Shown: positions 10,736 through 41,132 of the stretch, piece after piece
Layout: each line of letters begins with the position of its first letter
How positions within the stretch are numbered: position 1 is the first letter of the stretch
Source of the DNA: an uncultured Bacteroidales bacterium
Lineage (GTDB): Bacteria > Bacteroidota > Bacteroidia > Bacteroidales > FEN-979
Reading direction: 5' to 3'
Length of the DNA stretch: 48,305 nt
Assembly (NCBI GenBank): GCA_903824935.1
Contig: CAIJYT010000178.1
Location: 1 to 48,305 of the forward strand
The notes under the pieces: model-generated
What the model was told of the DNA's origin: nothing
The model's database searches: none
The model's input: the letters and a program-made list of their open reading frames with translations, nothing else
Made by a program: the position numbers and the translations under genes

Positions 10736-11926
10736 TTATCCTTCCCTACGTATCACCATGGCGCTGCTGACCCCTCCGCCCCCGCAGATTGCGGCAATAG
10801 CATACCTCTTATCAAGGCGCTTCAGGGCATGGTATGCAGTGACAAATATCCTTGCCCCGCTTATACCTGTAGGATGTCCAAGGGCAATGGCGCCCCCGTG
10901 GACATTAAGTTTAGAACGATCCCACTTCAGGACTTTTTCATTGGCGAGAACCTGTATCGCAAAAGCTTCATTCACCTCGATAAGATCCAAATCATCCAAT
11001 GACATGCCTGCTTTCTTTAATGCTGCCGGTATTGAATATGCAGGGCCTTCTCCCATGGTTGAAGGATCAACTGCAAGTTGTGCATACGAAACAATCGAAA
11101 AAAGAGGCTTCAGCCCCATTTCTTCAGCTTTCCTCCGGCCTGTCACCACCAGGGCCACTGCTCCGTCACTAAGCCCGCAGGAGTTCCCCGCAGTTACCGT
11201 GCCGTTAGTCCTGAAAGCAGGTTTTATCGAAGCCATTTTTTCTGCACTGACCTCATGACGGATAGTCTCGTCCTTATCAAAGATTACCGCTTGTTTCCCT
11301 TCACCACCCCTTAAAACCACCGGAACGATTTCTTCGTCAAACCAGCCATTTTTTTGCGCCTGTGAAGCTTTCCGATGACTGCCTATGGCAAATTCATCCT
11401 GTTCCAGCCTCGAAATCCCGTATTTATCAAAAAGATTTTCTGCTGTTTCTCCCATTCCCTGTCCGATCAACGGATCGATGCTGTCGCTCCATCCGTCTTC
11501 AAGTGTTTTATTCCCCATTTTGAAACCGTCCCAGCGCGCTCCCTTCAGAAGGTATGGGATGGAACTCATGCTATCAAAGCCTCCGGCAACAACTATTCCC
11601 GCTTCTCCCAGCCGTATAGACTGTGCTGCCATCGCCAGGCTCCGCATTCCCGAAGGACATGCCATATTAACAGTCACAGCCGGAACTGAAGCTTCGATAC
11701 CGCCACGGACTGCGGCAGTCCTTGCAGGATTTGGCCCGTTCCCTGCCTGCCTGCAGCTTCCAAGAATAACTTCATCCACAAGGTTCCCGCTAAGCCCGCT
11801 GCGGCGCAGGGCTTCCCTGATGACCACAGCCCCGAGCTCCCACGACGGAACATCTTTAAGGCTGCCGCCAAACCTGCCCATGGCAGTGCGGCATGCAGCA
11901 ACAACAACGATATCCTTTAATTCCAT
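10736..11926 (-). CDS. Acetyl-CoA C-acyltransferase (thiolase)
   Basis: A 396-residue thiolase II family enzyme. The acylated cysteine lies in NMACPSGMRS, the catalytic histidine in GHPTGISGAR, and the second cysteine in the CGGGG block near the C-terminus. It either cleaves acetoacetyl-CoA to two acetyl-CoA or thiolyses a longer 3-oxoacyl-CoA. A start at 11962 would overlap the SDR gene by 23 bases and add residues unlike thiolases, so the ATG at 11926, 13 bases after the SDR stop, is preferred. It is the last gene of the aromatic cluster and is the likelier of the two thiolases to finish the pathway from acetoacetyl-CoA. Confidence 0.93.
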   Translation of the reverse strand: MELKDIVVVAACRTAMGRFGGSLKDVPSWELGAVVIREALRRSGLSGNLVDEVILGSCRQAGNGPNPARTAAVRGGIEASVPAVTVNMACPSGMRSLAMAAQSIRLGEAGIVVAGGFDSMSSIPYLLKGARWDGFKMGNKTLEDGWSDSIDPLIGQGMGETAENLFDKYGISRLEQDEFAIGSHRKASQAQKNGWFDEEIVPVVLRGGEGKQAVIFDKDETIRHEVSAEKMASIKPAFRTNGTVTAGNSCGLSDGAVALVVTGRRKAEEMGLKPLFSIVSYAQLAVDPSTMGEGPAYSIPAALKKAGMSLDDLDLIEVNEAFAIQVLANEKVLKWDRSKLNVHGGAIALGHPTGISGARIFVTAYHALKRLDKRYAIAAICGGGGVSSAMVIRREG

Positions 11927-11939
11927 ACAGCAGCTTTCA

Positions 11940-12686
11940 TTATATGTACTGGCCTCCGTCAACCTTGATCACCTCACCCGTGATGTGCCTGGCCAGTCCT
12001 GAACAAAGGAATACCACCAGGTTTGCAATATCTTCGGGAGTACCTAGTCGTTTCAATACGATCTCTTCAAGGGCAGCGGCAAGTACATCTTCCCCTGAAG
12101 TCTTCATCATTTCAGTCTCTATAAGCCCGGGAGCCACAGCGTTCACGTTGACATTGTATTTGCCAAGCTCCTTTGCAACGGTCTTCGTAAGCCCTATGAT
12201 CCCTGCTTTTGAGGCTGAATAATTAGCCTGTCCGAACTTGCCCCTGAGGCCGTTGATGGAAGTAATGTTCACAATCTTGCCCGATTGCTGCTCGCGAAAC
12301 AGGGGAGCAACAGCCCTGGTATAATTGAAAAAGCCTTTAAGGTTAACACTGATCACTTCATCCCATTGTTTTTCGGTCATCTTCCACACTACCCCGTCGC
12401 GGTTGATGCCTGCATTGTTCACCAGGATATCGAGCCTGCCGAATTCAAGAACAACCCGTTTCACCGAATTCTCGGCAGATGTAAAATCTGAGATGTCCGA
12501 CTGTATGAACATGGCCTTGCGTCCCATGCTTTTGATCTTTTTAAGGATATCCACGGCATCCTCTTCGTGTTTGCGGTCTATCATAATGACATCCGCACCG
12601 CATCCTGCAAGTTTCAGTGAAATGGCGGCACCTATCCCGCTGATCCCGCCGGTCACTATTGCAGTTTGATTTTCAAGATTTATCAT
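11940..12686 (-). CDS. SDR family 3-oxoacyl/3-hydroxyacyl reductase (FabG/PhaB-like)
   Basis: A 248-residue classical short-chain dehydrogenase. It has the nucleotide-binding TGGISGIGAA near residue 12, the NNAG motif, and a catalytic Ser/Tyr/Lys set with YSASK. The C-terminus ends in the usual VDGGQYI. Such enzymes interconvert 3-oxoacyl and 3-hydroxyacyl thioesters with NAD(P)H. Between hcrB and a thiolase it is placed to act on 3-hydroxybutyryl-CoA or 3-hydroxypimelyl-CoA. The fusion protein at 19056 carries another 3-hydroxyacyl-CoA dehydrogenase, so the two may be specialised for different chain lengths or cofactors. Confidence 0.9.
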   Translation of the reverse strand: MINLENQTAIVTGGISGIGAAISLKLAGCGADVIMIDRKHEEDAVDILKKIKSMGRKAMFIQSDISDFTSAENSVKRVVLEFGRLDILVNNAGINRDGVVWKMTEKQWDEVISVNLKGFFNYTRAVAPLFREQQSGKIVNITSINGLRGKFGQANYSASKAGIIGLTKTVAKELGKYNVNVNAVAPGLIETEMMKTSGEDVLAAALEEIVLKRLGTPEDIANLVVFLCSGLARHITGEVIKVDGGQYI

Positions 12687-12707
12687 TCCAGGTATTCTAG
12701 TTTATGT

Positions 12708-13643
12708 TCAGCCCAATTGCAGTTCCTTAAAACTCCTTTCAAGGAATACAATGATCATATCTTTTCTGTATTTCCTCGAATAGGTATCGTTATCTACTAT
12801 CCTTGATTGAGATACCGCCGCTGCGGCCAGGGCCTTCAGATCATCGCCTGCCTTACCGTCAACAATTACAGGCTTTGCATGAACTCCCCCGAGGACTATC
12901 CTGATGCTACCTGCCTTTTTCACCGACACCGCAGTAGTAAGAGAAGTAAAATCCAGGGTTGCCCTCTTTCTCAGTTTTTTGTATACAGAACTGATATGAT
13001 GATTTAATGGTATGCGGATGGCTTTAATGATTGACTCAGGGCTTATTCCCCTCGGAGCCATCCCGTCGCCTGTATAGATGCTTTCTAATGGTTTTATGGA
13101 AGTGCCGCTAAAATCCAGCAGTTCAACGCATGCATTCAGGCTTATCAGGACAATCGCCATATCTGAAACGAATTTCGCGAAACAGTGCTTGCTGCCCCCG
13201 CTTGCAAGACAAACAGGACCGCTGCTTTTAAGACAATAGCCTGAGGCTTCCCTCCACCATTCGCTCTGGTTGAAATACGAACAACGGTTCCCGCAAAGCA
13301 GGTTCCCTCCAAGTGTGGCGGTTTTTCTTATAGTGGGTGAAGCAACCGATTTCACTGCCTCGGCCAGGACTGGGAAATGATCACATACGGTTGAATGCCC
13401 TGCAAGATCATCAAGACTTATCAATGATCCTATCGCCAGGGTTTCATCGCTTGCAAACACTTCCTTCAAAGCCTGTATCTCAGAAATATCGATAAGCAGG
13501 TCAGCCAAATCGTTTCCCTGGAACCTGTTAACCATTACATCGGTTCCTCCCGCGAAGTACCGGACACGGCCATTGTTCTCTCTAGCCAGCGACAGGGCCT
13601 GCTCAGCAGTTGATGCTTTGATATATGTTTTTCCCTTCAGCAT
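12708..13643 (-). CDS. hcrB: 4-hydroxybenzoyl-CoA reductase beta subunit (FAD and 4Fe-4S)
   Basis: This 311-residue protein is the FAD-binding middle subunit of the xanthine oxidase family (AGGTD near residue 31; TIRKTATLGGNL near 104). It also has the short insert that marks 4-hydroxybenzoyl-CoA reductase: cysteines 121, 137, 145 and 154. Their spacing (16, 8, 9) is that of the cluster ligands I recall for Thauera HcrB (122, 138, 146, 155). Xanthine dehydrogenases lack this insert. The extra [4Fe-4S] cluster feeds electrons inward so that the enzyme reductively removes the para-hydroxyl of 4-hydroxybenzoyl-CoA to give benzoyl-CoA. It starts 15 bases after the fused HcrCA gene, its expected partner. 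Confidence 0.9.
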   Translation of the reverse strand: MLKGKTYIKASTAEQALSLARENNGRVRYFAGGTDVMVNRFQGNDLADLLIDISEIQALKEVFASDETLAIGSLISLDDLAGHSTVCDHFPVLAEAVKSVASPTIRKTATLGGNLLCGNRCSYFNQSEWWREASGYCLKSSGPVCLASGGSKHCFAKFVSDMAIVLISLNACVELLDFSGTSIKPLESIYTGDGMAPRGISPESIIKAIRIPLNHHISSVYKKLRKRATLDFTSLTTAVSVKKAGSIRIVLGGVHAKPVIVDGKAGDDLKALAAAAVSQSRIVDNDTYSRKYRKDMIIVFLERSFKELQLG

Positions 13644-13658
13644 CTGCCCTTATACATT

Positions 13659-16463
13659 TTATTCAGCTAAATGGTTTTCTTTCATCTTTGCCAGTATATC
13701 CTCGGCGCTTACCGGCAGACTGGTTATCCTCACACCCGTTGCATTGAATATCGCATTGGCAATGGCCGGGATCACCGGGTGGATCGCCCCTTCCCCTGCC
13801 TCCTTGGCGCCAAACGGACCCTCGGGATCAATAGTCTCAATAATGCTGGCGTGAATATCGGGGGTATCAACCGAAGTCGGGATCTTATATTCAAGGAAAT
13901 TATTGTTCAGAAGCAGCCCTTTATAATATTTCATCTGCTCGCTGATGGCCTGCCCCGTACCCATATGCCAGGAACCTTCGAGCTGGCCTTCAACAGCCAG
14001 AGGGTTCAGGGCCTTACCGCAATCATGGGCTCCCCACACATCGGTCACTTTCACGTACCCTGTCTCCATATCAACTTCCACTTCGGCAATGCAGGCCCCG
14101 AATGAATACGATGGGCTTAGCCCGGCCCCGGCACCCTTGAAATCACCTCCCAGCTTAGGTGATATGTATTTTCCGCTAACGCTTACCGCTCCCCTTTTGG
14201 CAGTGAGTATCTCTACTGCTTCCATCCATGAAAGGTTTGTCGTCGTATCGTTGCTGTATATCCTGTCGTCGCTGAAATTCAGTTCACCGGGGTTTATATT
14301 ATGCTTTATTACAAGGGCTTCTGTGATCTCCTTCTTCAGGATCAATGCAGCATCTTTGGCCGCATTTCCTGCCATGAAAGTGACCCTGCTCGAATACGAG
14401 CCGAAATCGACAGGGGTCAGAAGAGTATCTGCGGCAAGCACAAAGATCTTGTCCATGCCTATCCCCAAAACTTCCGAAACTATAATGGCAAGCATGGTGT
14501 CGCTTCCCTGTCCTATATCGCTTGAACCCGAAGTAACCAGCACCCTCCCGTCAAAATCGAGCTTCAGGTGGACCACCGACTGCGGCAACTCGTTCCATAT
14601 AATAGGCAATGCGCTCCCGCTGATAAAGAATCCGCAGGCAACTCCAAGCCCCCTGCCTTTCTCGAGCTTTCCCCTGCGGTCTTTCCAGCCCGAGAGGTCC
14701 ATTACTTTTTGCAGGGATTCCCGGCTTCCGTTCGAGGTGATACGGTACTGCCCAACAGTAAGAGTATTTGAATCAAGAAAATTCTTCATCCTGAGTTCGC
14801 AGGGGTCCATCGCTATCTTTATGGCCAGGTCGTCGATCAGTGACTCCACGGCAAACCTTGAATTCACAGCCCCATGCCCGCGCATTGCTCCGCATTGGGG
14901 TTTGTTGGTGTATACGCGATATGTGCGAAATCCGAAATTGTCAAGCTTATAGGGAGCCTGCAGAAGCACCCCATTGTAATAGGATGTCACCACCCCGAAG
15001 CTGCCGTAGGCGCCCCCGTCGATTGCAACATCTGCATCAAGGACTTTGATCGTTCCCTCTCCGGAAATACCCATTTCGACTGTCATTTTTGACGGATGAC
15101 GTCCGTGGTTGGTAAGGAACACTTCTTCCCTCGACAAGCGCACCCTTACCGGCCTTCCGGTCTTGCGGGAAAGGTGGGAAACAATGATCTCATGGGGAAA
15201 GGGATCGCTTTTACCCCCAAACCCTCCGCCCAGGTATGGTTTGATCACACGTACCCGGCTCAGGGGAACTTCCATCACCTTGGCCAGGGCCCGGTGAAGG
15301 TAGTGGGGAACCTGGGTCGCCGTTATGATCGTAAGCCCGTTCTCGTCCCAGTATGCAGTGGCAGCATGGGGTTCGGTGAATCCATGGCTGAGGCCTTCAA
15401 ATTCGAAGGACATTTTACTTGTAAATTCAGCCTCTTTTATTCCCTGCTGCTGGTCGCCGAAACGCAGCTCGGCCTTTTTATGGATATTATTATTGAACTT
15501 GCCGGTTTCATGGATACGTTCATTTTCACCTGCATCGTTCAGCGAATCTTCAATAGTCAGGAATTCCCTGATGGGTTTATACTTTACCCTGATAAGCCTG
15601 CATGCTTCAGCAGCAATCTCTTCTGTATCGGCTGCAACAGCTGCAACGATCTCGCCTGCATACCTTACTTTTTCCACAGCTATTGCAGTCTCATCCTGGG
15701 AAATGGGAAGCACACCGAATTTACCGGGAATCTCACGGCCTGTTGCGATATAATGAACACCCTGCATTATCATGGCTTCGGAAACATCAATATGTTCAAT
15801 CCTCGCGTGAGAATGTATACTTCGCAGGAATTTGCAGTGCAGCGAATTCTTGAGAACAATGTCATCAGCGTATTCTGCTGCCCCCCTCACTTTCTTCTCA
15901 GCCTCAAGGTATGGTCTTGGAATTCCAACACCACCCTTGATGGCATGGGCGGGTTTGAAAGGAGATGATTTACTGACTGTTGTTGCTGAAATTTCCTTAA
16001 CATATCCAGCCACCGCTTCGATGATCTTTTTATATCCGGTGCATCTGCAGAGGTTTCCCGACAATCCTTCCTTTACTTTACGGATGAGTGCCGATGAGTC
16101 AGTTTCTCGGATCAGCGCCGGCGCCAGGCTCAGGGCTGTAAGAACCATCCCGGGTGTACAGAACCCGCATTGTATGGCCCCTTTTTCGACGAATAATTCT
16201 TGCAGCCTGTGAAGCTTCCCGTCTTTTGCCAGGGCTTCGATAGTGGTCACTTCCGATCCGTCACAGCGCAAAGCGGGAGTAATGCAGCTCAACACGGCTT
16301 TGCCATCCACAAGCACAGTACAGGCACCACAGCTCCCTTCTTCGCAGCCTATCTTGGTTCCTGTAAGCCCGGCTTTTTCACGGATCAGGTGAGCAAGAGT
16401 TTCATGCTCTGTTGCCAGGAGGTGAAATTGTTTGCCGTTGATACTGATGTTGATCTGCTGCAT
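13659..16463 (-). CDS. hcrA: 4-hydroxybenzoyl-CoA reductase, fused 2Fe-2S (HcrC) and molybdopterin (HcrA) subunits
   Basis: From the ATG at 16463 this is a 934-residue fusion. Residues 1 to about 155 are a two-[2Fe-2S] subunit (C40, C45, C48, C60 and C99, C102, C139, C141). From about residue 180 on it is a molybdopterin large subunit with GGGFGGKSD and the active-site glutamate region GPFGAKEAGEG. In known 4-hydroxybenzoyl-CoA reductases these are separate chains of about 160 and 770 residues. The next gene, HcrB, carries the diagnostic 4Fe-4S insert, and xdhC and mocA lie directly upstream. A GTG at 16487 would add eight residues. A different hydroxylating activity is possible, but the benzoyl-CoA context supports the call. 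Confidence 0.85.
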   Translation of the reverse strand: MQQINISINGKQFHLLATEHETLAHLIREKAGLTGTKIGCEEGSCGACTVLVDGKAVLSCITPALRCDGSEVTTIEALAKDGKLHRLQELFVEKGAIQCGFCTPGMVLTALSLAPALIRETDSSALIRKVKEGLSGNLCRCTGYKKIIEAVAGYVKEISATTVSKSSPFKPAHAIKGGVGIPRPYLEAEKKVRGAAEYADDIVLKNSLHCKFLRSIHSHARIEHIDVSEAMIMQGVHYIATGREIPGKFGVLPISQDETAIAVEKVRYAGEIVAAVAADTEEIAAEACRLIRVKYKPIREFLTIEDSLNDAGENERIHETGKFNNNIHKKAELRFGDQQQGIKEAEFTSKMSFEFEGLSHGFTEPHAATAYWDENGLTIITATQVPHYLHRALAKVMEVPLSRVRVIKPYLGGGFGGKSDPFPHEIIVSHLSRKTGRPVRVRLSREEVFLTNHGRHPSKMTVEMGISGEGTIKVLDADVAIDGGAYGSFGVVTSYYNGVLLQAPYKLDNFGFRTYRVYTNKPQCGAMRGHGAVNSRFAVESLIDDLAIKIAMDPCELRMKNFLDSNTLTVGQYRITSNGSRESLQKVMDLSGWKDRRGKLEKGRGLGVACGFFISGSALPIIWNELPQSVVHLKLDFDGRVLVTSGSSDIGQGSDTMLAIIVSEVLGIGMDKIFVLAADTLLTPVDFGSYSSRVTFMAGNAAKDAALILKKEITEALVIKHNINPGELNFSDDRIYSNDTTTNLSWMEAVEILTAKRGAVSVSGKYISPKLGGDFKGAGAGLSPSYSFGACIAEVEVDMETGYVKVTDVWGAHDCGKALNPLAVEGQLEGSWHMGTGQAISEQMKYYKGLLLNNNFLEYKIPTSVDTPDIHASIIETIDPEGPFGAKEAGEGAIHPVIPAIANAIFNATGVRITSLPVSAEDILAKMKENHLAE

Positions 16464-16498
16464 TTCCGGATCAATTGGCCAGGACACGTTTTAACGTC

Positions 16499-17269
16499 CT
16501 ACCTGGCTGTATTCTTTTCTTTTATAAGTTTAGCAATGATGCTGATTGCTATCTCATCGGCGCTCTCAGCATTGATATCAAGGCCTATCGGCATATCTAC
16601 ATTTTCAATTTCTTCGGATGAGGCAATTCCCTCATTCACGAAATCCTCCTTTATCCTTTTTACCTTATTCCTGCTGCCTATCAGGCCGAGATAGTAATGA
16701 GGCTTGTGAAGACAGAATGCCAGGACTTCGCGGTCGGTCGGATGATCCAGGGTTGCAATTACGATGAAAGTACCGCTATCGTAAGGCAGGCCGGGCATTA
16801 CCTTTGCAAAATCACCGGTGACCTTCGTGAATCCTGTATCGGTCCAGTTGTCGAAAATATCCCTGCGCGGATCAACGACGGTGATATCAAAATCGAGATC
16901 CATGGCGTGTTTTACGACTGCCTTCCCAACATGGCCACCACCGAATATGAATAGCTTCTTCTGAGGCATAAGCGGTTGTATAAAAATTTCAACAGTTCCC
17001 CCGCAGCACATCTGGTGCTGTTCCATCAGGTCATGTTTAAAAAGGGCGGGCTTTCTTTCTTTAATAACCTTAACGGCATCCTGTATAACAGCCCACTCAA
17101 GCGGCCCGCCTCCGACCGTTCCATAGATCTGCTCATTCTCCCAAATAATCATTTTCGCGCCTGTCTTTAATGGCGTGGAGCCCTTGGTGGAAACCACAGT
17201 GCATAGGGCTGTAACAGGGCCGCTTTTAAGCAGTTCCGATACCTTATCGTAAATTAAACAATCTTTCAT
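16499..17269 (-). CDS. xdhC: XdhC/CoxI family molybdenum cofactor insertion protein
   Basis: A 256-residue XdhC family protein. Its N-terminal XdhC/CoxI domain holds VVSTKGSTPLKTGAKMII and MCCGGTVEIF. Its C-terminal Rossmann domain holds FGGGHVGKAV near residue 130 and GLIGSRNKVKRI. XdhC proteins bind molybdenum cofactor, promote its sulfuration and deliver it to xanthine-oxidase-family enzymes. Here the client is evidently the HcrCA protein 35 bases downstream. The start overlaps the end of mocA by 26 bases, which indicates translational coupling. Confidence 0.93.
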   Translation of the reverse strand: MKDCLIYDKVSELLKSGPVTALCTVVSTKGSTPLKTGAKMIIWENEQIYGTVGGGPLEWAVIQDAVKVIKERKPALFKHDLMEQHQMCCGGTVEIFIQPLMPQKKLFIFGGGHVGKAVVKHAMDLDFDITVVDPRRDIFDNWTDTGFTKVTGDFAKVMPGLPYDSGTFIVIATLDHPTDREVLAFCLHKPHYYLGLIGSRNKVKRIKEDFVNEGIASSEEIENVDMPIGLDINAESADEIAISIIAKLIKEKNTAR

Positions 17270-17837
17270 ATTCTTCGGGGGTGTTGATGTTTGTCAGCAC
17301 CTTGTTGTTCGGCATCTCAACTCTTTTATAAGCCAACCCGCTCAGGACAAGCTTCAAATTTGCATCATTTATATGATAATTCCTTATGAAATTTATATTT
17401 TTTCTGTTCAGCAGCACAGGATGCCCTCCCCTGCCTTCAAATATGGGAGTGACATAGGCATCGTCGCTCCTTTCTTCAAAAAGGGCGTCGAGGATCTTCG
17501 AATCGACAAATGGGTTATCCACATTCTGAAAAAAACAGGAATCCGCCCCCTTTATATTTTCAAGGCCGAGTTTCAGTGAATAAAATCTCTCATATTCAGG
17601 ATGATCGTTTACAACTACTGAAACTTTCTTATGACCCGACAGAAGCTGTTTCACAGTTGAGGCTGTTTTCTCACCGACCACCACTGAAATGGCTGTGCAA
17701 CCCCAGTTTGCATATTCCGAAACTATCTTTTCAATGAACGTGACCTCCAGGCTGAAACCAAGCAGGGCCTTGGGTTTTTGCATCCTTGACGAAATCCCCG
17801 CTGCAAGAATTACCGCTGCCGTATTTTTCGTTTCCAT
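17244..17837 (-). CDS. mocA: MocA-like molybdenum cofactor nucleotidyltransferase
   Basis: A 197-residue NTP-transferase with the signature LAAGISSRMQKPKALL at residues 11-26 and an NVDNPFVD metal-binding stretch. The family includes MocA, which adds CMP to molybdopterin to make the cytosine dinucleotide cofactor, and MobA-like relatives. Lying directly before xdhC and hcrCA, it most likely makes or trims the cofactor for 4-hydroxybenzoyl-CoA reductase, an enzyme known to use molybdopterin cytosine dinucleotide in Thauera. CTP versus GTP specificity was not judged. Confidence 0.85.
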   Translation of the reverse strand: METKNTAAVILAAGISSRMQKPKALLGFSLEVTFIEKIVSEYANWGCTAISVVVGEKTASTVKQLLSGHKKVSVVVNDHPEYERFYSLKLGLENIKGADSCFFQNVDNPFVDSKILDALFEERSDDAYVTPIFEGRGGHPVLLNRKNINFIRNYHINDANLKLVLSGLAYKRVEMPNNKVLTNINTPEEYERLFNLR

Positions 17838-17855
17838 TGGTCAGGGTCCCAGGGA

Positions 17856-19034: not shown

Positions 19035-19055
19035 CCCTGGTATCTTAAACTGTTG

Positions 19056-21518: not shown

Positions 21519-21600
21519 GTATTCTTTGTTTATTTTTATTTCTTCTGATGAATTTCCGGATCATAGCTGCGCCAGTCACCGGTCTCTGACAGGAAGATAT

Positions 21601-22869: not shown

Positions 22870-22899
22870 ATTTTAAAATACAATTTGTTTACTATTAAC

Positions 22900-22927
22900 G
22901 ATTCACGGTTTAAGATTCACGGTTTAA
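22900..22927. repeat. Tandem 14-bp repeat at a gene end
   Basis: GATTCACGGTTTAA occurs twice head to tail (22900-22913 and 22914-22927). It covers the stop codon and the last codons of the activator gene at 22910-23665. A related set occurs at 27880-27905, also on a stop codon. Confidence 0.8.
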
Positions 22928-25676: not shown

Positions 25677-25682
25677 GTTTTT

Positions 25683-26774: not shown

Positions 26775-26802
26775 GTCAAAATGGTTTTTGTATATACTCT
26801 GT

Positions 26803-27864: not shown

Positions 27865-27879
27865 ATGTTTTATTTACTG

Positions 27880-27905
27880 TTCACGATTCACGGTTCACGG
27901 TTCAC
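27880..27905. repeat. Short tandem TTCACG(G) repeat at a gene end
   Basis: Four TTCAC units occur in 26 bases: TTCACGA-TTCACGG-TTCACGG-TTCAC. The run overlaps the TGA of the PanE-like gene (27904-27902) and fills much of the gap to had. The unit is related to the 14-bp repeat at 22900-22927. Confidence 0.75.
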
Positions 27906-28870: not shown

Positions 28871-28901
28871 GTTCTATATTGTTGTTAAGAATTTCTCATT
28901 A

Positions 28902-31010
28902 CTAAAGTATGATCCTTGCATCCACAGCACAGATTGCATCATCTATAGCAAACAGTGGGTTCAGATCCAGCTCCCTGATAGCTGGGAAATCGGCACACAG
29001 CATGGAAACACGTTGTATAACCTCAGTTGCCTTCTCCCTGTTTATCCCTTTTTCTCCCCTAAACCCGTCGATAAGGGCCGAAGCTTTGATCGAGCTTATC
29101 ATCTCCATGGCTTCAGTGTCGCTTACAGGACTTATTGCAAAAGCAACATCTTTCAGGACTTCAACAAAGATCCCCCCCAGGCCGAACATCAGGATATGAC
29201 CTGTTCCTTCAGATGCCTTTGCTCCTATAATTAACTCCCTGCCTGGTTTAAGGAATTTCTGTACCAGGAATTTCATCCCTCCTCCGAGCGCCGTTTTCAT
29301 TTTCTCAACCGCAGCTTGTATTTCCCCGGAGTTTTTCAGGTTTACCGCGACACCGCCCACATCACTTTTATGAATGATGGTTTCCGAATCGACTTTGACT
29401 ACGACAGGATAACCTATCTGGGTTGCATTATAAACAACTTCCTTAACATCGGATGCCACTTTCCATGGAGTGACAGGGATTTTATATGCTTCAAGGATGG
29501 AATACACTTCATTGGCCGTCAGGACTTCCCTGTTCATGTGCTTTGCATTATCCAGTATCCTGGCAACATTTCCCCTGCTGACATCATTAAAGATCCTGAC
29601 AGTTCCTTTTTCCGAACTTAATATTTTGTTGTATCTGACCAGTGAATACATTGCCCTTGCTGCAGTTTCCGCGAAATCGAAACACGGTATCCCTCCTTCA
29701 TTGAGAATTTTTGAGGTTCCTGCCCATTTTTCCTTATCGGTCATGTAATTGCAGACGATGGGCTTGTTACCTGCCTTAGCAGCTGCCGCAATTTCGCGGG
29801 CAACGTTTTCACAGTCGACAAAAGGAGGGGTGACAAAATTCAGGTAAATGCTGTCGAACTGATCTTCGTTCATCATCACTTCAAGTGCGCTTTTAAAATG
29901 AGCCGGCCCGGCTGTGGCAACCACATCAAGAGGGTTCCTGATAGAAGCTGATTCAAGCATGCTGCCCTTAAGTGTCTCTGCAGCTTTGGCTGAAAGGGGC
30001 GGTATCACAAGCCCGCAGCTGACAAGTTCATCGATGGCAATGACTGAAGGGCCTCCGGTGTTTGTAATAATCCCGACCCTGTTGCCTTTCGGGACTGGTT
30101 GGGAAGAAAGAGCCACGGCAGCATGGCAGAGTTCTTCCTGGTTGGTAAAAGCCAGTATCCCTGCTTTCCTGAAAATGAGGTCCATGGAAATGCTGCCTGC
30201 CAGTCCCCCTATATGGGACCTGGAAGCCTCGGCTCCTTTATCAGTCCTCCCGGCTGTGATGGCAAGAACAGGCTTGCGTGCAGTAACCTTCCTTACGACT
30301 TCAATAAACTCAAGAGGATTTTCAAGGCTTTCGGCGTAAAGCACAATAGCCCTGGTACCTTCATCCTTACCGTAATAGCTGATAAATTCAGTGATCGATA
30401 CGTCGGAACCATTGCCGTTCGAGGCGTACATCCTCTGCCCTACCCCCATGTCGTAGAAGGCCTGCATCAGCACGGCTCCCACTCCGCCGCTCTGGGCAAC
30501 AACCGAGATATAACCCGGCTGCGGGTAAGTAAAAGTAAAATTGCAGTAAGCATTTATTGCAGGATCGGAATTGATGATCCCCTGGCAGTTAGGACCAACG
30601 ATACGTATCCCGTACTTTTTGGCCCTTGCCAGGAAATCGTCTTCGAGAGCCTGGCCTTCAGGTCCCATTTCCTTGAATCCTGCGGTGTTGATGATGACGG
30701 CTTTGATTCCTTTTTTCCCGCATTCTTCCACCGCATCAGGCACAAAAGGAGGAGGGATCACTATATGCGCAAGATCTACAGGTCCCGGGATATCCAGAAC
30801 CGAGGCATAAGCTTTGAGCCCGCGGATCTCATCGACTTTCGGGTTTACCGGGTAGACCGGCCCGGTGAATTTATAATGCAGCAGGTTTTTAATGATCACA
30901 TTCCCTATGGAGAGTTCCTTGGCTGAAGCGCCTATCAGTGCAACGGCCCTTGGTTTGAATAAGTGATCGAGATTATCGTTCATTGGTTTCGGGTTCTGCG
31001 GTTTGTTCAA
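28902..31010 (-). CDS. ADP-forming acyl-CoA synthetase, fused alpha and beta chains
   Basis: A 702-residue NDP-forming acetate/acyl-CoA ligase. Residues 1 to about 460 form the CoA-binding and ligase alpha part (LIGAS; the phosphohistidine loop SRSHIGGLAG near residue 267). From about 490 on there is an ATP-grasp beta part (YPVVVKVDSETIIHKSDVGGV). Both chains are in one polypeptide, as in many bacteria. The enzyme can make ATP from acyl-CoA, ADP and phosphate, or run in reverse to activate acids. It overlaps bcrD by four bases. It could recover ATP from acetyl-CoA or supply aromatic CoA esters; the acyl group is not known. An internal ATG at residue 10 is an alternative start. Confidence 0.93.
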   Translation of the reverse strand: MNKPQNPKPMNDNLDHLFKPRAVALIGASAKELSIGNVIIKNLLHYKFTGPVYPVNPKVDEIRGLKAYASVLDIPGPVDLAHIVIPPPFVPDAVEECGKKGIKAVIINTAGFKEMGPEGQALEDDFLARAKKYGIRIVGPNCQGIINSDPAINAYCNFTFTYPQPGYISVVAQSGGVGAVLMQAFYDMGVGQRMYASNGNGSDVSITEFISYYGKDEGTRAIVLYAESLENPLEFIEVVRKVTARKPVLAITAGRTDKGAEASRSHIGGLAGSISMDLIFRKAGILAFTNQEELCHAAVALSSQPVPKGNRVGIITNTGGPSVIAIDELVSCGLVIPPLSAKAAETLKGSMLESASIRNPLDVVATAGPAHFKSALEVMMNEDQFDSIYLNFVTPPFVDCENVAREIAAAAKAGNKPIVCNYMTDKEKWAGTSKILNEGGIPCFDFAETAARAMYSLVRYNKILSSEKGTVRIFNDVSRGNVARILDNAKHMNREVLTANEVYSILEAYKIPVTPWKVASDVKEVVYNATQIGYPVVVKVDSETIIHKSDVGGVAVNLKNSGEIQAAVEKMKTALGGGMKFLVQKFLKPGRELIIGAKASEGTGHILMFGLGGIFVEVLKDVAFAISPVSDTEAMEMISSIKASALIDGFRGEKGINREKATEVIQRVSMLCADFPAIRELDLNPLFAIDDAICAVDARIIL

Positions 31011-31837
31011 TTTTTTGAGCTTAATTTCTGATGACGGAAACCGCCCCAGATGGCAGCACCTATTGCACCTGCATAGATTGACTCATGATGCGCCCTTACT
31101 TCCAGGCCGAGTTTGCTTTCAGCAATGAGTTCCTGCACCGCCTGCACCATTCCCACATTCATGGCCATACCACCCGTCAAAGCCACAGGTGAAACAGCTT
31201 TTAACGAAGAAAGCAACTTGACGATCTTGTTTGCAATGGAGAGATGGATGCCCTTGATGATGTCAGGAGTCGCTATCCCCCTGGAAACCATATTGATCAC
31301 ATCGGTTTCGGCAAGCACCGAGCAAATTCCCGAAGGAGTTTCAGGCGAGTTGGACTTAAGCGAAACAGCGCCAACATCCTCAATGGAAAGCCCCAGATAA
31401 CGGCTGATATTCTCTATAAACTGCCCGGATCCCGAAGCACATTGCCCTGTCATTTTATAATCGAGCACCCTTCCCAGTTCATTGATCTTGATAGCTCTCA
31501 CGTAAAGGGCCCCCATATCGACCACCGTTACCGAACCCGGGCAGAGAAAAATCCCTCCCCTTGCATGAGTGGTCATGCTGTAGAAATGCCCGCGTTTGCG
31601 CTGCAGCATCTCCCCTTCGCCGGTGGATGCCAGGTATGCAATATCTTTCACCGACAGCTTATTCCTTTCAAGAAGGGCGTCTATCAGCTGGTCGGCCACC
31701 ATTTCGGGGTTCCTCTTCCTGATCTTTTCCATCTGCTGGTCAATAATGACGGGCTCACCGTTATAACTCAACAGCACAGCCTTTATAATGCTGCTTCCTA
31801 CGTCAACCCCGATGGTATATATACTCTGATCTTTCAT
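31007..31837 (-). CDS. bcrD: Benzoyl-CoA reductase subunit D
   Basis: A 276-residue ASKHA-fold ATPase subunit of class I benzoyl-CoA reductase. It has GVDVGSSIIKAVL at the N-terminus, the BcrD/BadG-type stretch HFYSMTTHARGGIF, and cluster-bridging cysteines in GQCASGSGQFIENI and SGICSVLAETDVINMVSRGI. Length matches Thauera BcrD (about 280). With BcrA it hydrolyses ATP to drive electrons from ferredoxin to the catalytic BcrBC pair. It is the fourth gene in the order bcrC-B-A-D and overlaps the acyl-CoA synthetase gene by four bases. Confidence 0.96.
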   Translation of the reverse strand: MKDQSIYTIGVDVGSSIIKAVLLSYNGEPVIIDQQMEKIRKRNPEMVADQLIDALLERNKLSVKDIAYLASTGEGEMLQRKRGHFYSMTTHARGGIFLCPGSVTVVDMGALYVRAIKINELGRVLDYKMTGQCASGSGQFIENISRYLGLSIEDVGAVSLKSNSPETPSGICSVLAETDVINMVSRGIATPDIIKGIHLSIANKIVKLLSSLKAVSPVALTGGMAMNVGMVQAVQELIAESKLGLEVRAHHESIYAGAIGAAIWGGFRHQKLSSKN

Positions 31838-31873
31838 TTTACTGCGGATGTTTGTTTCCCGTCCTCCGGCGGA

Positions 31874-33256
31874 TTAGTTTATTACATTTCTTCTGGCAAA
31901 CATGGCTCCACCGAGGGCTCCCATGAAAATGGAATCGGTATGTACATTGATTTTAATATCCTTTCCGTAATTCTGAATCACCAGGTCGGATACATATTTC
32001 AGAACAGCCTGGTTCCTTGCAACGCCGCCGGTGAAAGTGAACTCATTGCGTACCCCACCCGAACGCGCCAGCAAAGACATTGCACGCATAACAATAGCCC
32101 GGTGCAGGCCGGCCAGGATATCCGAGCGCTTCTGTCCCACATTCAGGAGCTCCCTGATCTCAGCCGCTGCAAACACCGTGCAGGTCGAACAGATATTCAC
32201 CTCTTTTGTCGCCTCTATGGCAAGCGGGCCAAGCTCGTTCAACGATATATTGAATTCATCGGCTATGTATCCTAGGTATCTTCCGCAGCCTGCAGCACAG
32301 CGGTCATTCATATAAAAACTTGTAACAAGCCCATGGCTGTCAACCTGGATCGCCTTGGTATCCTGCCCGCCAATGTCAAGAACTGTCCTGGTATCGGGGA
32401 ATACAGCGTGGGCGCCAAAAGCATGACAAAGGATCTCCGAGCGTATCGACTTCTCGGGGAAAGGCAGCAGAGCCCTGCCGTAACCCGTGCCTACCATGTC
32501 GGTGATATGAATATCGAGGCCGGCAACAAAACCGATATGGCCCTTCAGTGAATCATATATCCTTTTATAATTACCCTTAAGCAGGTTCAGTTCGCTGTCA
32601 AAAGCAAGGCCGGATTCTTCGGATGAGGATTCACCAAGCCCGGCATATTTATCGTTCAGCAAGGCCATGGAATGATCGACGAGCTCTCTGAAATCATATT
32701 CAGTAAGTTCGTTCTCAACTTTGGTGATGCTTTTGTCGTATACAAGCATCATTGGTTCGAAAAAATCCTTACCGAGTCCTGCAATTTCCTTGTTATACCT
32801 TTCACTGACGATATCCCTGAAAAACTGGTTCTTGCTGCCGAGCTGCCCTGTAAGAAACTCATCCAGGACCGACGGCCCTATCCTGCTTACAATACCATCA
32901 ACGTAGCCTGATATCGCATCCCTTTTTTCACCTGAAAAAGTAGTGGTTATCGTATCACGGAATTCCACGCTCAGCCTGTCGAGCCTGCGTTTGAACTGCA
33001 GGTACTGGAATACCGATTCAACATCGCGGATATACCTTTTATAATCGGGCCTGCTCTCAATCTCATCCTGAAGCTTCATCTTCAGAAGAGTGAACCTCGC
33101 ATTATAGGTGGCTTCCAAACGTGCTATCTCCGTGGCTACCGTATAATTTGCCCTGGTATTTGTTATGCCCCTGCCGATGATATGGTCATTTTCATCAATA
33201 ATGATCGCCTTTGAAGTTGTTGACCCAAGATCTATCCCCAGAAAATATTTCTTCAT
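31874..33256 (-). CDS. bcrA: Benzoyl-CoA reductase subunit A
   Basis: A 460-residue ATPase subunit of class I benzoyl-CoA reductase, close to the usual BcrA/BadF length of about 440. It has GIDLGSTTSKAII at the N-terminus and a long helical insertion (about residues 40-235) that sets BcrA apart from BcrD. A second phosphate motif LDIGGQDTKAIQV and cysteine blocks DRCAAGCGRYLGYI and ICSTCTVFAAAEI follow. With BcrD it forms the heterodimer that holds one [4Fe-4S] cluster and spends ATP per electron. It lies 36 bases upstream of bcrD and 66 bases after bcrB. Confidence 0.96.
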   Translation of the reverse strand: MKKYFLGIDLGSTTSKAIIIDENDHIIGRGITNTRANYTVATEIARLEATYNARFTLLKMKLQDEIESRPDYKRYIRDVESVFQYLQFKRRLDRLSVEFRDTITTTFSGEKRDAISGYVDGIVSRIGPSVLDEFLTGQLGSKNQFFRDIVSERYNKEIAGLGKDFFEPMMLVYDKSITKVENELTEYDFRELVDHSMALLNDKYAGLGESSSEESGLAFDSELNLLKGNYKRIYDSLKGHIGFVAGLDIHITDMVGTGYGRALLPFPEKSIRSEILCHAFGAHAVFPDTRTVLDIGGQDTKAIQVDSHGLVTSFYMNDRCAAGCGRYLGYIADEFNISLNELGPLAIEATKEVNICSTCTVFAAAEIRELLNVGQKRSDILAGLHRAIVMRAMSLLARSGGVRNEFTFTGGVARNQAVLKYVSDLVIQNYGKDIKINVHTDSIFMGALGGAMFARRNVIN

Positions 33257-33322
33257 CAGTGTTTATGTTATATTGTAAAATCCCGTCCCCGTTTTCAGGA
33301 GAGCAGGAAGGCCGTTACAGGA

Positions 33323-34606
33323 TCAAGCCGTTTTGATGATCATTTTCCTTTGCTCCAGCATCTGGAAAAATGACTCAAGCCTGTTTTTGATATTCGAGTA
33401 GGAGAAATATCTCGGGTCGACCAGGTCGGATTCAATGAACCCGATAGGTATTTCGAGTTTTTTCTCGAGTTGCTGCATGATCATCAACTGTCCTGCAGAG
33501 AAGGAATTGCAACTTTTTATCGAATTGACCAGGAAGCCGTCGGCATGGTAATCGGTGATGCATTTCGACAGCAGGTCGACTCTTTGTTGAAGATTCAGGT
33601 TGGTGTAACAGTTCATGCAGTATTCGGCAAGGCTTTCAAGTGGTTTATCGGGATTGACACGGAAACCCATATCATAAACCCCTCCCACTTTGGTGTAGGA
33701 TGAGGCTACGATCACGGCTCCCATATCATAAAAAAGTTTCCAGAATTCGCGGAAATGTGTCCAGTTGGGAGGACCTTCTACAACCAGCCTGAAGCGTTCT
33801 TCCTCCATCACACCCTCAGGTGTGATTGGGCCCAGCTTGTTCTCGATGCGTTCACGTATCTCCTTGTACAACTCGGCATAATAATCAACAGCCTGGGGTG
33901 TTCCCCTGAAGCCGCTGTTGATGGGGCCTATGTAATAAACACCGGCAAAATAGGCATCAATAGGAGAAGGACGGTGCTTGGTGGTATCAAAAATATTGAT
34001 GATGTGTTGTTCAACTTTAGAAGAATTCCGCAAGGCAGCTTTCAGTTTTTCCTCATCATATTTATTGCCCGAGACCTGTTCCATCTTGGGGATCACCTCT
34101 TCCTTCAGCTGTTTGACCATATATGCGGTCATCTCAGGTGTTATTTTATGCGCTTCCTGGTAAGGTGTATGCAGAAGGGCAACCGGCACACCGGGATAAA
34201 GGCGCTCGAGGGTTTCGAACCATTTAAGGAAAGTAAAACAGCCGGTATAGCTTAAAAGCAGCAGGTCAGGGTTAGGGATCTTTTCACCCGTGGGGCCGAT
34301 ATTGCCGTTGATCATCATCCCCACATCGCATTTTACATAGGTGCAAACATCTTCGGAATGCCCATGCTGTTCCGCATCACGGATATAATCGCCCGATTTT
34401 TTCCTCATCCCCGACTGAAGTGCATTGATCTCAGGGTATACCGGCAGCATGCCAAATGAAAGAATGAGCTCGGAGATATTACCGGGGACAAAAGTGTACA
34501 CTACCTTTTTACCGGTTTCTTTCGCAGTGCTAAGTTCCATGAAATGATTGGCTATCATCTCTTTCTGGATGATCATGCTGCGTTCTTTTGCTACATCCTT
34601 CGACAT
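33323..34606 (-). CDS. bcrB: Benzoyl-CoA reductase subunit B
   Basis: A 427-residue catalytic subunit of class I benzoyl-CoA reductase. As I recall Thauera BcrB, long stretches are nearly the same, including AEQHGHSEDVCTYVKCDVG, LLLSYTGCFTFLKWFE, VVEGPPNWTHFREFWKLFYD and INSIKSCNSFSAGQL. Cysteines in these blocks are the cluster ligands. With BcrC it binds benzoyl-CoA and performs the two-electron ring reduction to the 1,5-diene. The gene follows bcrC after 23 bases. This is the strongest single family assignment in the cluster. Confidence 0.97.
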   Translation of the reverse strand: MSKDVAKERSMIIQKEMIANHFMELSTAKETGKKVVYTFVPGNISELILSFGMLPVYPEINALQSGMRKKSGDYIRDAEQHGHSEDVCTYVKCDVGMMINGNIGPTGEKIPNPDLLLLSYTGCFTFLKWFETLERLYPGVPVALLHTPYQEAHKITPEMTAYMVKQLKEEVIPKMEQVSGNKYDEEKLKAALRNSSKVEQHIINIFDTTKHRPSPIDAYFAGVYYIGPINSGFRGTPQAVDYYAELYKEIRERIENKLGPITPEGVMEEERFRLVVEGPPNWTHFREFWKLFYDMGAVIVASSYTKVGGVYDMGFRVNPDKPLESLAEYCMNCYTNLNLQQRVDLLSKCITDYHADGFLVNSIKSCNSFSAGQLMIMQQLEKKLEIPIGFIESDLVDPRYFSYSNIKNRLESFFQMLEQRKMIIKTA

Positions 34607-34629
34607 ATGGTTTTATGATAAGCTGTTAT

Positions 34630-35814
34630 TTATTTTTTTAGCTGAAGCGGCTCTTCCCAGAGCTTGATGGAATCGGAGAATGTCCCTACCTGTTCCTTGA
34701 TTACCTTGAACTGCCCGGTATTTTCACTGTAAAGGAAACTGATAAACCGTATATTCCTGTCGTTGCACATCTTCTGCAATATAGGGTGATCGAGCAGGGC
34801 CGGGTCACAGAAACTGGGAGCGGCAAAGATCACACCGTCAACGTTCCTGCTTTTAATCAGTTCCAGAAGCCTGACTTCCTTGGGATTGCCAACATCATAA
34901 ACTGATGACGAGAAAGTGCTTTTCTCAAGATAAGCATCGGTCAATGCTTTTATAGGATCAGCTGTATAAGTATCAATGTTTCCCATGATCCATCTCGAGC
35001 CCAGGAGAAAATCGTCCTCAATAATATAACACCCTGCCATTTCGATAGTTCGGATCAGCCCAAGGGGCGGCTGCTCACAAAAAGCACCCATCACCAGGAC
35101 CCGGATTTTATCGAGAGGCTCACCGTTTTCCTCGATGACCAGGGCTATCACCTTCTCAAGGATGGCGTTATGGTCTTCCACAGGAATGACATATCCTGCG
35201 CGTACTATATTATAAACATCGGCAGCCGTCATTCTCCAGGGAAAGTCCTGCCTGATGGCATAAATACGGTGGATCAATTCACGGTTCCTGTTAAAAAGTG
35301 AGATGGAATGATTGAGCCGTTCAGGAGTAACACTTACACCGTTGATGTCAAAAACTGACTTAAGGACAGTCTGAAGTTCATGGATATAAAACTCCCCGCC
35401 TATATGGGATTTGAAATTCTGGGGAAGATCGAGATATTTCACAAAGGATCCTCTTTCAAGAAGCTGGAACATTCCCGAAAGGTTCCTGATGACATCACAG
35501 ATCGAAGGGAAGATGAAACCGTCAAAGCCTTCAAAATGATTATCCAGGACAAGTTCCATGATACTCCTTGGCATATGGCATATATACGACTGGTAATATG
35601 CATCTCCTTTAAGGATCAGCTTTTTATCTCCCCCTCCAAGGATGCCGACGGCCAGGCCGTTTGCGGCATGTATGATCTCCCGGGGAAAATATACAGGCAT
35701 ATGACCAACCAGGACACGGTCACTGCTCTTTGATTTCCAATTTTTTGCGAAGGAAAAATTCAGGTCGAAGGCCAGTTCCTCACAATGCGCGGATATTTCA
35801 GACAGGGTATTCAG
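34630..35814 (-). CDS. bcrC: Benzoyl-CoA reductase subunit C, probable non-AUG start
   Basis: Catalytic partner of BcrB. Family blocks include GDAYYQSYICHMPRS, FPSICDVIRNLSGMF, GAFCEQPPLGLIRTIE and IFAAPSFCDPALL; their cysteines are cluster ligands. The first ATG (35700) would give 356 residues and lose the N-terminus. In the same frame upstream, residues that fit BcrC continue (FAKNWKSKS, VLVGHMPVYFPREIIHAA) with no ATG, GTG or TTG. A CTG at 35814, seven bases after AAGGGA, gives 394 residues, near the family's 385 or so; a CTG at 35805 is also possible. A small sequencing error upstream cannot be excluded. It is the first gene of the 20-gene cluster. Confidence 0.9.
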   Translation of the reverse strand: MNTLSEISAHCEELAFDLNFSFAKNWKSKSSDRVLVGHMPVYFPREIIHAANGLAVGILGGGDKKLILKGDAYYQSYICHMPRSIMELVLDNHFEGFDGFIFPSICDVIRNLSGMFQLLERGSFVKYLDLPQNFKSHIGGEFYIHELQTVLKSVFDINGVSVTPERLNHSISLFNRNRELIHRIYAIRQDFPWRMTAADVYNIVRAGYVIPVEDHNAILEKVIALVIEENGEPLDKIRVLVMGAFCEQPPLGLIRTIEMAGCYIIEDDFLLGSRWIMGNIDTYTADPIKALTDAYLEKSTFSSSVYDVGNPKEVRLLELIKSRNVDGVIFAAPSFCDPALLDHPILQKMCNDRNIRFISFLYSENTGQFKVIKEQVGTFSDSIKLWEEPLQLKK

Positions 35815-35821
35815 AGTGCAA

Positions 35822-35827
35822 TCCCTT
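35822..35827 (-). promoter_or_regulatory. Shine-Dalgarno-like site for the CTG start of bcrC
   Basis: AAGGGA on the minus strand ends seven bases before the CTG at 35814. The spacing is ideal, and no in-frame ATG, GTG or TTG exists upstream of 35700 in this frame. The motif decides between CTG starts at 35814 and 35805 in favour of 35814. Confidence 0.4.
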
Positions 35828-35915
35828 ATTAAGTGAATAAATATAAATATGCTTTGTGGAACCAGTAAAGAGCGAGCTTTGGCAGCTAAGGATCAGATAT
35901 CTTCGAAAGAGCATC

Positions 35916-35946
35916 CAAATGTAAAAAAAAAAATCGATTTAATCAA
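35916..35946 (-). promoter_or_regulatory. Bacteroidetes-type promoter of the benzoyl-CoA cluster
   Basis: On the minus strand TACATTTG (35923-35916) matches TAnnTTTG exactly. A TTG (35946-35944) lies 20 bases upstream, the expected minus-33 position; the spacer contains a run of 11 T. Transcription would begin near 35909, leaving about 95 bases of leader before the CTG start of bcrC. It is the only convincing promoter found upstream of the 20 co-directional genes. Confidence 0.6.
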
Positions 35947-36100: not shown

Positions 36101-36110
36101 CACTACGGTG
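36095..36110. other. Junction between chromosomal and phage DNA
   Basis: To the left lie AT-rich intergenic DNA, a Bacteroidetes-type promoter and a broken flavoprotein start. To the right lies continuous GC-rich phage coding sequence. The change takes place within about 15 bases. There is no integrase, attachment repeat or transposon end at this point, which favours an assembly chimera over a biological insertion. Confidence 0.75.
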
Positions 36111-41124: not shown

Positions 41125-41132
41125 GAGGGGCA

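Follow-up and report, generated by a model that had tools for sequence, protein, structure and literature searches.

A predicted benzoyl-CoA degradation cluster with an exchangeable reductase in an uncultured Bacteroidales bacterium

We analysed a 48,305-nucleotide stretch of DNA (the window) from an uncultured Bacteroidales bacterium, contig C178 of a metagenome-assembled genome (MAG; 3,633,084 bases in 289 contigs, 95.15% complete and 1.47% contaminated), and find a single cluster of 20 minus-strand genes, from position 10736 to about 35814, that very probably encodes a complete anaerobic catabolic pathway for benzoyl-CoA. The reductase is an exchangeable part of this cluster: in three of the four cluster-bearing genomes of genus g5, from the same family, the class I reductase genes bcrCBAD are gone and a class II bam operon lies at their place. 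Anaerobic breakdown of aromatic compounds centres on the reduction of benzoyl-CoA, for which there are two unrelated enzymes, held to mark two lifestyles. The ATP-dependent class I enzyme is ascribed to facultative anaerobes and the ATP-independent class II enzyme to obligate anaerobes (PMC5109826, PMC5736913), with exceptions that include the class I enzymes of Ferroglobus and deep-sea Chloroflexi (PMC5736913, PMC12521323); statements on papers cited by PMC number refer to the excerpts available. A Bacteroidales family with either or both enzymes, in a cluster that is otherwise largely unchanged, is a natural experiment on the choice of class. Two features, the in-place exchange of class I and class II and a conserved trio of genes retained through it, are described neither among the records listed nor in the excerpts from the open-licence PubMed Central literature searched.

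Gene content and predicted pathway

Intergenic gaps within the cluster are at most 82 bases. An earlier note on this DNA listed twenty consecutive minus-strand genes, all of which were found, and the gene families it gave agree with the NCBIfam results; its right end, at 35946, should be about 35814, and bcrC has no ATG, GTG or TTG at the expected place. Left unnamed there were the trio (22910-23665, 23662-24912 and 27902-28870) and an ADP-forming acyl-CoA ligase (28902-31010). Chance does not account for the cluster, as dozens of other assemblies carry these genes in linkage too. The predicted genes are:

34630..35814, minus strand: bcrC, class I benzoyl-CoA reductase subunit C (likely CTG start; TIGR02263, 403 bits when read from an ATG)
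33323..34606, minus strand: bcrB, active-site subunit (TIGR02260, 640 bits, cut-off 487)
31874..33256, minus strand: bcrA, ATPase/activase subunit (TIGR02259, 424 bits, cut-off 578, best match)
31007..31837, minus strand: bcrD, ATPase/activase subunit (TIGR02261, 310 bits, cut-off 313, best match)
28902..31010, minus strand: acdAB, ADP-forming acyl-CoA ligase, probably for activation of an aromatic acid (CoA_binding, Succ_CoA_lig and ATP-grasp_5 domains)
27902..28870, minus strand: ApbA/PanE-family NAD(P)-dependent 2-hydroxyacid dehydrogenase-like protein, trio (TIGR00745, 162 bits, cut-off 141)
26803..27864, minus strand: had, 6-hydroxycyclohex-1-ene-1-carbonyl-CoA dehydrogenase (TIGR03201, 453 bits, cut-off 339)
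25683..26774, minus strand: oah, ring-opening 6-oxocyclohex-1-ene-1-carbonyl-CoA hydratase (TIGR03200, 586 bits, cut-off 464)
24897..25676, minus strand: dch, cyclohexa-1,5-dienecarbonyl-CoA hydratase (TIGR03189, 215 bits, cut-off 292, best match)
23662..24912, minus strand: HgdB/HadB-like 2-hydroxyacyl-CoA dehydratase subunit with no HadC partner detected, trio (sequence and AlphaFold model fit HadB)
22910..23665, minus strand: activase, ATP-dependent electron activator of the HgdB-like subunit, trio (TIGR00241, 164 bits, cut-off 125)
21601..22869, minus strand: thiolase 1 (TIGR01930, 306 bits, cut-off 241)
19056..21518, minus strand: 3-hydroxyacyl-CoA dehydrogenase/enoyl-CoA hydratase fusion (NCBIfam)
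17856..19034, minus strand: glutaryl-CoA dehydrogenase, probably decarboxylating (432 bits to 1sir, 240 to 3mpi)
17244..17837, minus strand: MobA/MocA-like molybdenum cofactor nucleotidyltransferase (NCBIfam)
16499..17269, minus strand: XdhC-like molybdenum cofactor maturation factor (NCBIfam)
13659..16487, minus strand: 4-hydroxybenzoyl-CoA reductase (HCR)-like gamma-alpha fusion, HcrC-HcrA (TIGR03194, 801 bits; 590 bits to HcrA 1rm6_A)
12708..13643, minus strand: HCR-like beta subunit, HcrB (HCR cysteine insert aligned to 1rm6_B)
11940..12686, minus strand: SDR (FabG-like) dehydrogenase (NCBIfam)
10736..11962, minus strand: thiolase 2 (TIGR01930, 453 bits, cut-off 241)

BcrC, BcrB, BcrA and BcrD are encoded together, and their best NCBIfam matches are the four Bcr models. 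When the curated NCBIfam cut-offs are applied, BcrB, Had and Oah pass, while BcrD, BcrC, BcrA, Dch and the three HCR subunits fall below; for each protein below its cut-off the model is still the best match, except for HCR gamma, where it is third for its stretch. The BcrC score of 403 bits, against a cut-off of 421, was obtained on the frame shortened to an ATG. The start is likely a CTG at 35814, which on visual comparison corresponds to the TTG starts of relatives, the upstream frame being open. In G003, a genome of the window's genus, bcrC likewise has no ATG, GTG or TTG at the start position, and some relatives use TTG.

In BzdO, the active-site [4Fe-4S] cluster in the B subunit is held by Cys95, Cys128 and Cys380, with Glu65 as the acid residue (PMC11971306). 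Matched to this site through an alignment to MbdO, the BcrB residues C93, C123, C366 and E59 are invariant in all 45 alignment rows; BzdO His131 has no counterpart in the BcrB of the window or in MbdO. Five cysteines of BcrC are invariant in 44 rows and a sixth is found in 37 of the 44; BzdN has six double-cubane cysteines, to which a one-to-one match is ambiguous. Had and Oah, above their cut-offs, and Dch, whose best match is a model with a cut-off that it does not reach, are all linked to the reductase.

The HCR subunits score 801 of 995 bits (alpha), 209 of 405 (beta) and 151 of 258 (gamma) relative to their equivalog cut-offs, and we therefore name the enzyme HCR-like only, with a putative substrate. 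The four insert cysteines of HcrB align without gaps to those of 1rm6_B, which we take to be the ligands of an extra [4Fe-4S] cluster. In three of the seven family relatives in which this slot was read (G012, G016 and G028), the hcrAC-like gene is 70-82% identical to that of the window; in the other four (G009, G018, G023 and G026; loci L025, L030, L032 and L035) the identity is 40-42%. Directly behind hcrAC-hcrB in G119 (L086, 4813-7753) are two POR/Kor-like 2-oxoacid:ferredoxin oxidoreductase genes, a possible source of electrons for Bcr. The glutaryl-CoA dehydrogenase is nearer to 1sir, presumably the human decarboxylating enzyme, than to 3mpi, presumably the non-decarboxylating enzyme of Desulfococcus, and is thus probably decarboxylating.

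The activities, direction and physiology that we propose are predictions from these genes. The HCR-like enzyme would dehydroxylate 4-hydroxybenzoyl-CoA to benzoyl-CoA, whose ring the ATP-dependent BcrCBAD would then reduce; Dch would hydrate the product, Had oxidise it and Oah open the ring to yield 3-hydroxypimelyl-CoA, which the dehydrogenase/hydratase, the thiolases and glutaryl-CoA dehydrogenase would convert to acetyl-CoA and CO2. This route from 4-hydroxybenzoyl-CoA to acetyl-CoA and CO2 was put forward in the earlier note, and gene families and linkage support it. It resembles the class I pathway of Thauera and Magnetospirillum, which we take to comprise bcrCBAD, dch, had and oah, in that BcrB, Oah and Had exceed curated cut-offs, the four Bcr subunits are adjacent and the HCR beta insert is as in 1rm6. 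It differs in its Bacteroidota host, the trio, the ADP-forming ligase, the fused HCR gamma-alpha subunit and the lack of a ferredoxin gene in the cluster, and in that class II replaces the reductase in some relatives.

Exchange of the reductase and of the ligase

Neither BcrB nor BcrC was found in any of the four cluster-bearing g5 genomes (G011, G018, G024 and G027). In G018, G024 and G027 the acdAB-apbA-had-oah-dch-hgdB-activase block is 76-86% identical to that of the window, and bamB (661-668 aa; truncated at a contig end in G027) flanks acdAB at the bcrCBAD position, in divergent orientation. BamC-, BamD-, BamE- and BamF-like genes follow bamB in G018 and G024, and a NuoE-like BamG in G024; the BamC-like protein is named by its position, length and ferredoxin-like N-terminus and has no NCBIfam or Pfam match. 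Against 4z3w_A, a solved class II benzoyl-CoA reductase that we take to be the Geobacter enzyme, the G018 BamB reaches 1281 bits over residues 1-650 of 668; its next best match scores 220. BamB occurs in four of 61 relatives, the three g5 genomes and G009, and not in the window's genome. G009 carries both reductases: its bam genes, which extend to NuoF-like and 2Fe-2S (NuoG-like) candidates for BamH and BamI, start divergently beside bcrC, and full-length bcrC, bcrB, bcrA and bcrD lie between bam and acdAB. Like BamBCDEFGHI of Geobacter metallireducens, these relatives have a BamB of the tungsten-enzyme type (as in G018) followed by BamC- to BamI-like genes (as in G009), among them Hdr/Nuo-like genes for electron transfer; unlike that system, the bam genes here are found only in relatives of the window and beside genes that elsewhere accompany class I. 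A further difference is that the window's family has oxidases, whereas published work links class II with obligate anaerobes (PMC5109826, PMC5736913).

In a tree built from 2405 columns of six shared proteins (20 rows), class II is nested within class I. The three class II rows form one clade (100/99) inside a 12-row clade (100/100) that also holds eight class I rows and G009; five rows, those of class II, G009 and G026, form a clade at 95/95 with no internal resolution. An approximately unbiased (AU) test rejected a single clade of the eight class I rows (p 0.005), and we prefer this as a fairer test than one with nine rows, G023 added (p 1e-42). A quick tree of 35 rows is consistent with the 20-row tree. 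The simplest history is that class I came first, bam was gained alongside it, bcr was lost in g5, and bam was lost in G026 or never gained by it. As a side observation, long cluster proteins of L029 (17543-19699, g5) and L081 (6512-8377, Zixiibacteriota) look alike by eye at the N-terminus; that of L029 has no NCBIfam match at E 1e-15 and no Pfam match at E 1e-5.

Several points weigh against a complete cluster with an exchangeable reductase. A number of subunits lie below NCBIfam equivalog cut-offs, and no ferredoxin, electron donor, benzoate transporter or typical benzoate-CoA ligase is found in the cluster, the rest of its own genome not having been searched. The hcrAC-like genes of four of the seven family relatives (G009, G018, G023 and G026) reach no more than 40-42% identity, so that these genomes may hold another molybdenum enzyme or hydroxylase in the slot. 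The remaining g5 genome, G011, has its piece of the cluster on a 3.3 kb contig, and no BamB was found there, nor BcrB or BcrC. Deeper outgroup loci are class I by construction, because BcrB was the search bait; this bias does not touch the family members, which were detected with Oah and on which the polarity rests. Finally, heme-copper oxidases give no explanation for which reductase class was kept, since 20 of 23 family members without the cluster have them.

We also considered an artefact of assembly or binning as the source of the cluster or of the exchange between the two classes. Mis-joins do occur in this bin, the window contig being probably chimeric right of 36094, and the double locus of G009 rests on one assembly. 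We nonetheless regard an artefact as very unlikely: much the same linked gene set is found in many MAGs and in two single-contig genomes, and bamB is divergent from acdAB in three g5 MAGs and keeps that orientation in G009, with bcrCBAD between. It is likewise very unlikely that the Bcr homologues act on a CoA thioester other than benzoyl-CoA. Members of this superfamily do catalyse varied reactions (PMC11971306), and the substrate of Bcr here is a predicted one, but Dch, Had and Oah are linked to it and BamB has been swapped in at the same locus. A benzoyl-CoA cluster with an exchangeable reductase is the reading that we retain.

The ligase slot varies as well. Behind bcrD, 19 of 44 loci have an ADP-forming ligase, 20 an AMP-forming ligase and five neither, and never were both found at the thresholds used. 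Beside the ADP-forming ligase in L075 (17097-17564) and L082 (13778-14245) lies a 155-aa open reading frame (ORF) like the C-terminal part of the AMP-forming enzyme, that of L075 being 39% identical over 150 residues to the L076 ligase; it may be a leftover of an AMP-forming ligase or a domain reused from one. Because the two types alternate in one slot, with a leftover-like ORF, both probably activate the same acid.

The conserved trio

The trio accompanies the pathway genes in most loci. Of the 37 loci that extend 9 kb or more downstream of bcrB, 35 have the ApbA-like gene, 31 the HgdB-like gene and 23 the activase, a gene that in the window's family is situated close to the end of the flank or past it; eight named loci are genomes also read under G numbers. 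In eleven loci (L060, L062, L069, L070, L072, L075, L076, L077, L079, L082 and L085) the ApbA-like protein and the activase form one ORF of 601-642 aa. The HgdB-like gene is missing from the available stretch in L050, L057, L058 and L084, and all three genes are missing in L061 and L073. Both of the latter have bcrC-bcrB, with bcrA and bcrD not found in L061 and split off by other genes in L073, and may be decaying or rearranged clusters. The HgdB-like gene occurs in exactly the 14 of 61 relatives that have Oah and in none of the 47 others (14 of 43 family genomes). In a separate sample of 395 genomes described below, G220 (L095/L096; listed as 100% complete) has an orphan HgdB-like gene (G220:C37:34722-35921), with no BcrB and no cluster gene in 40 kb around it; Oah and BamB were not searched there. 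To our knowledge, the trio is absent from the clusters of Thauera, R. palustris and Azoarcus.

The HgdB-like residues C93, C131, C359, S46 and E64 are kept in all 34 rows and align with HadB; we take S46 and E64 to be the counterparts of HadB Ser37 and Glu55 and to share their role. Its AlphaFold model (mean predicted local distance difference test score 84.9) fits HadB 3o3m_A best (Z 46.1, root-mean-square deviation 2.3, 395 residues), ahead of BzdO (Z 44.2), MbdO (38.9) and the double-cubane protein DCCP (32.7). We considered it as a double-cubane protein and set this aside, since HadB is ahead by both sequence and fold, although DCCP fits. Activase C124 and C163 are present in all 22 rows. 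The ApbA-like protein keeps K195, N199, S265, E277 and N110, presumably the catalytic residues of ketopantoate reductase. Among solved structures, D-mandelate dehydrogenases match it best in both sequence and fold, and ketopantoate reductases follow closely.

The HgdB-like protein and its activase resemble HadBC and FldBC with their activators, which we take to be (R)-2-hydroxyisocaproyl-CoA and phenyllactyl-CoA dehydratases, in the HadB-like fold, the three cluster cysteines, Ser46 and Glu64, and the activase. They differ in that no HadC/FldC-type subunit was detected and in that a CoA ligase, not a CoA transferase, is adjacent. A BcrC query for such a partner returned only BcrC itself in the window's genome and nothing in the four g5 genomes, although a very distant subunit could escape it; BcrC as the partner is weakened by its absence from all four. 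We thus do not class the two proteins as an (R)-2-hydroxyacyl-CoA dehydratase, no HadC-type subunit having been found, but they may work like one.

If so, the trio might supply a benzoyl-CoA-type substrate from aromatic 2-oxo or 2-hydroxy acids, a possibility that we advance tentatively. An NADH-dependent D-2-hydroxyacid dehydrogenase would reduce an aromatic 2-oxo acid to the (R)-2-hydroxy acid, the CoA ligase would activate it, a single-subunit dehydratase of the (R)-phenyllactyl-CoA type with its activase would form a cinnamoyl-type CoA ester, and thiolysis would give benzoyl-CoA or 4-hydroxybenzoyl-CoA. The broader picture, equally tentative at best, is of a modular oxidiser of aromatic acids, in which ligase and reductase are swapped in place and a kept entry module would turn phenylpyruvate or 4-hydroxyphenylpyruvate, from Phe or Tyr, into benzoyl- or 4-hydroxybenzoyl-CoA via cinnamoyl- or coumaroyl-CoA. 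The low identity of the HCR slot in four of the seven family relatives counts against the 4-hydroxy branch. No aromatic amino-acid genes were recognised near other loci among the N-termini of 19 ORFs read; the four ORFs scanned for families were the two oxidoreductase genes of G119 and two bam genes of G009. The trio would then be a candidate for an entry into benzoyl-CoA by way of a dehydratase, as postulated for benzene degradation, where similar chemistry has been proposed and a phenyllactyl-CoA dehydratase sought (PMC13416013).

Two other roles for the trio must be weighed against this aromatic entry route. The trio could provide electrons to the benzoyl-CoA reductase, or mature it, with no substrate route of its own: it lies inside the cluster, includes an ATP-dependent activase and has an HgdB-like member that tracks Oah exactly. 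We consider this unlikely. As the trio persists where class II has taken over from class I, a role in serving the class I enzyme is improbable; the g5 genomes with the unrelated enzyme keep it, and no BcrC-like protein was found in any of the four. The HgdB-like protein, moreover, retains the dehydratase-type Ser and Glu, and G220 has its gene but no BcrB, nor any cluster gene in the 40 kb read. Alternatively, the trio could be a dehydratase system for a non-aromatic (R)-2-hydroxy acid, such as lactate or 2-hydroxyglutarate, that merely shares the operon. The nearest solved relative, HadB, does act on 2-hydroxyisocaproyl-CoA, and the ApbA-like protein is almost as similar to ketopantoate reductases as to D-mandelate dehydrogenases, but this role is doubtful given that the HgdB-like gene lies beside benzoyl-CoA genes in 31 of the 37 loci and that the top ApbA-like matches are dehydrogenases of an aromatic 2-hydroxy acid.

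Distribution, host and contig junction

The host was assigned by genome kinship to named Bacteroidales MAGs. G003, of the same genus by this measure, bears the cluster too, and 19.5 kb of its contig match CAIWXI010000010, from a public MAG labelled 'uncultured Bacteroidales bacterium isolate Kiruna_bin-10044', at 100% identity. The family may be VadinHA17 of GTDB, to judge from an isolate name (fen_979). The Bacteroidetes-like host proposed earlier is thus upheld by this kinship and by public MAGs of the genus and family labelled Bacteroidales; the concern that the bin might belong to some other phylum, with the pathway already described, proved unfounded, as the phylum is Bacteroidota.

A BcrB query found 42 loci in named genomes, which NCBI labels as Bacteroidota (32, including 12 Bacteroidales), Chlorobiota (3), Ignavibacteriota (3), Zixiibacteriota (1), Pseudomonadota (1) or without a phylum (2). 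In a sample of 395 genomes spread over the phylum, BcrB is above its cut-off in three, the window's own, G119 and G354, the last two being single-contig genomes with a linked cluster; it is above the cut-off in none of 14 control genomes. Oah exceeds its cut-off in 14 of 61 relatives, all in the window's family and spanning five genera, and in none of the 14 controls. The trait is patchy across the phylum, yet real. A linked gene set much like the one for which the earlier note had proposed a search (bcrCBAD, oah, dch and had) is present in many MAGs and the two single-contig genomes; the note's claim of the pathway in Bacteroidota holds, and the trait reaches further than it supposed, with 32 of the 42 named loci labelled Bacteroidota. 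Class I clusters have also been reported in Krumholzibacteriota (PMC10936416). A locus labelled Gammaproteobacteria (L059, isolate J025) has bcrCBAD 64-80% identical to that of the window and may be a mislabelled bin or a transfer. A plasmid collection, tried as a source of named proteobacterial outgroups, gave 11 records of 22-25% identity, of the dehydratase family where annotated.

Published accounts already place anaerobic benzoyl-CoA genes in Bacteroidota. MAG KA17 of the Vicingaceae (Bacteroidota by taxonomy look-up), with NarG, has a four-subunit Bzd-type benzoyl-CoA reductase (PMC8470020), and the koll-22 MAG 18 (Flavobacteriales) expresses enzymes of anaerobic benzoyl-CoA degradation (PMC8099898). 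These are likewise Bacteroidota, but of the order Flavobacteriales and mentioned briefly; the cluster anatomy, the trio and the exchange do not appear in the excerpts of either account. The statement that there is no experimentally described Bacteroidetes example therefore stands for cultured or biochemically tested organisms in the literature searched, but not for MAGs, which are in print, once with expression. Uncultured Bacteroidales join the organisms that may mineralise aromatic carbon without oxygen.

The window's own genome has three matches to heme-copper oxidases (PF00115). All ten BcrB genomes have two to four each; G018 has two, G024 and G011 one each, and G027 none. The three oxidases fit the class I rule, as do those of the 20 of 23 family members without the cluster, and we therefore set aside oxidase content as uninformative on the choice between class I and class II.

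One further feature lies outside the cluster:

36094..48305, no strand: probably mis-joined phage-like DNA (51-base overlap, jump in GC content)

The GC content rises from 0.35 to 0.62 around 36.1 kb. The 51 bases at 36043-36093 are identical to the end of contig C188, which continues as an intact lpd, and in G003 a single gene (255 aa) separates bcrC from a similar lpd start upstream; the natural neighbour of the cluster is thus lpd. The roughly 12 kb from 36094 to 48305, with tail-fibre and head-decoration matches and an integrase (46075-47286), were probably attached by the assembler through the 51-base overlap, or may be a strain variant with an insertion at 36094. A fear raised at the outset, that the cluster itself might be chimeric, was not borne out, but the contig right of 36094 probably is. 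A native prophage is not favoured, as 36200-44000 matches none of 40 relatives. Megablast gave no match for 36200-48305 in a set of 50,697 phage records. For the 1181-aa protein at 37137 there are matches in 49 phage records, of which the ten listed cover only 8% of its length and are mostly tail fibre proteins.

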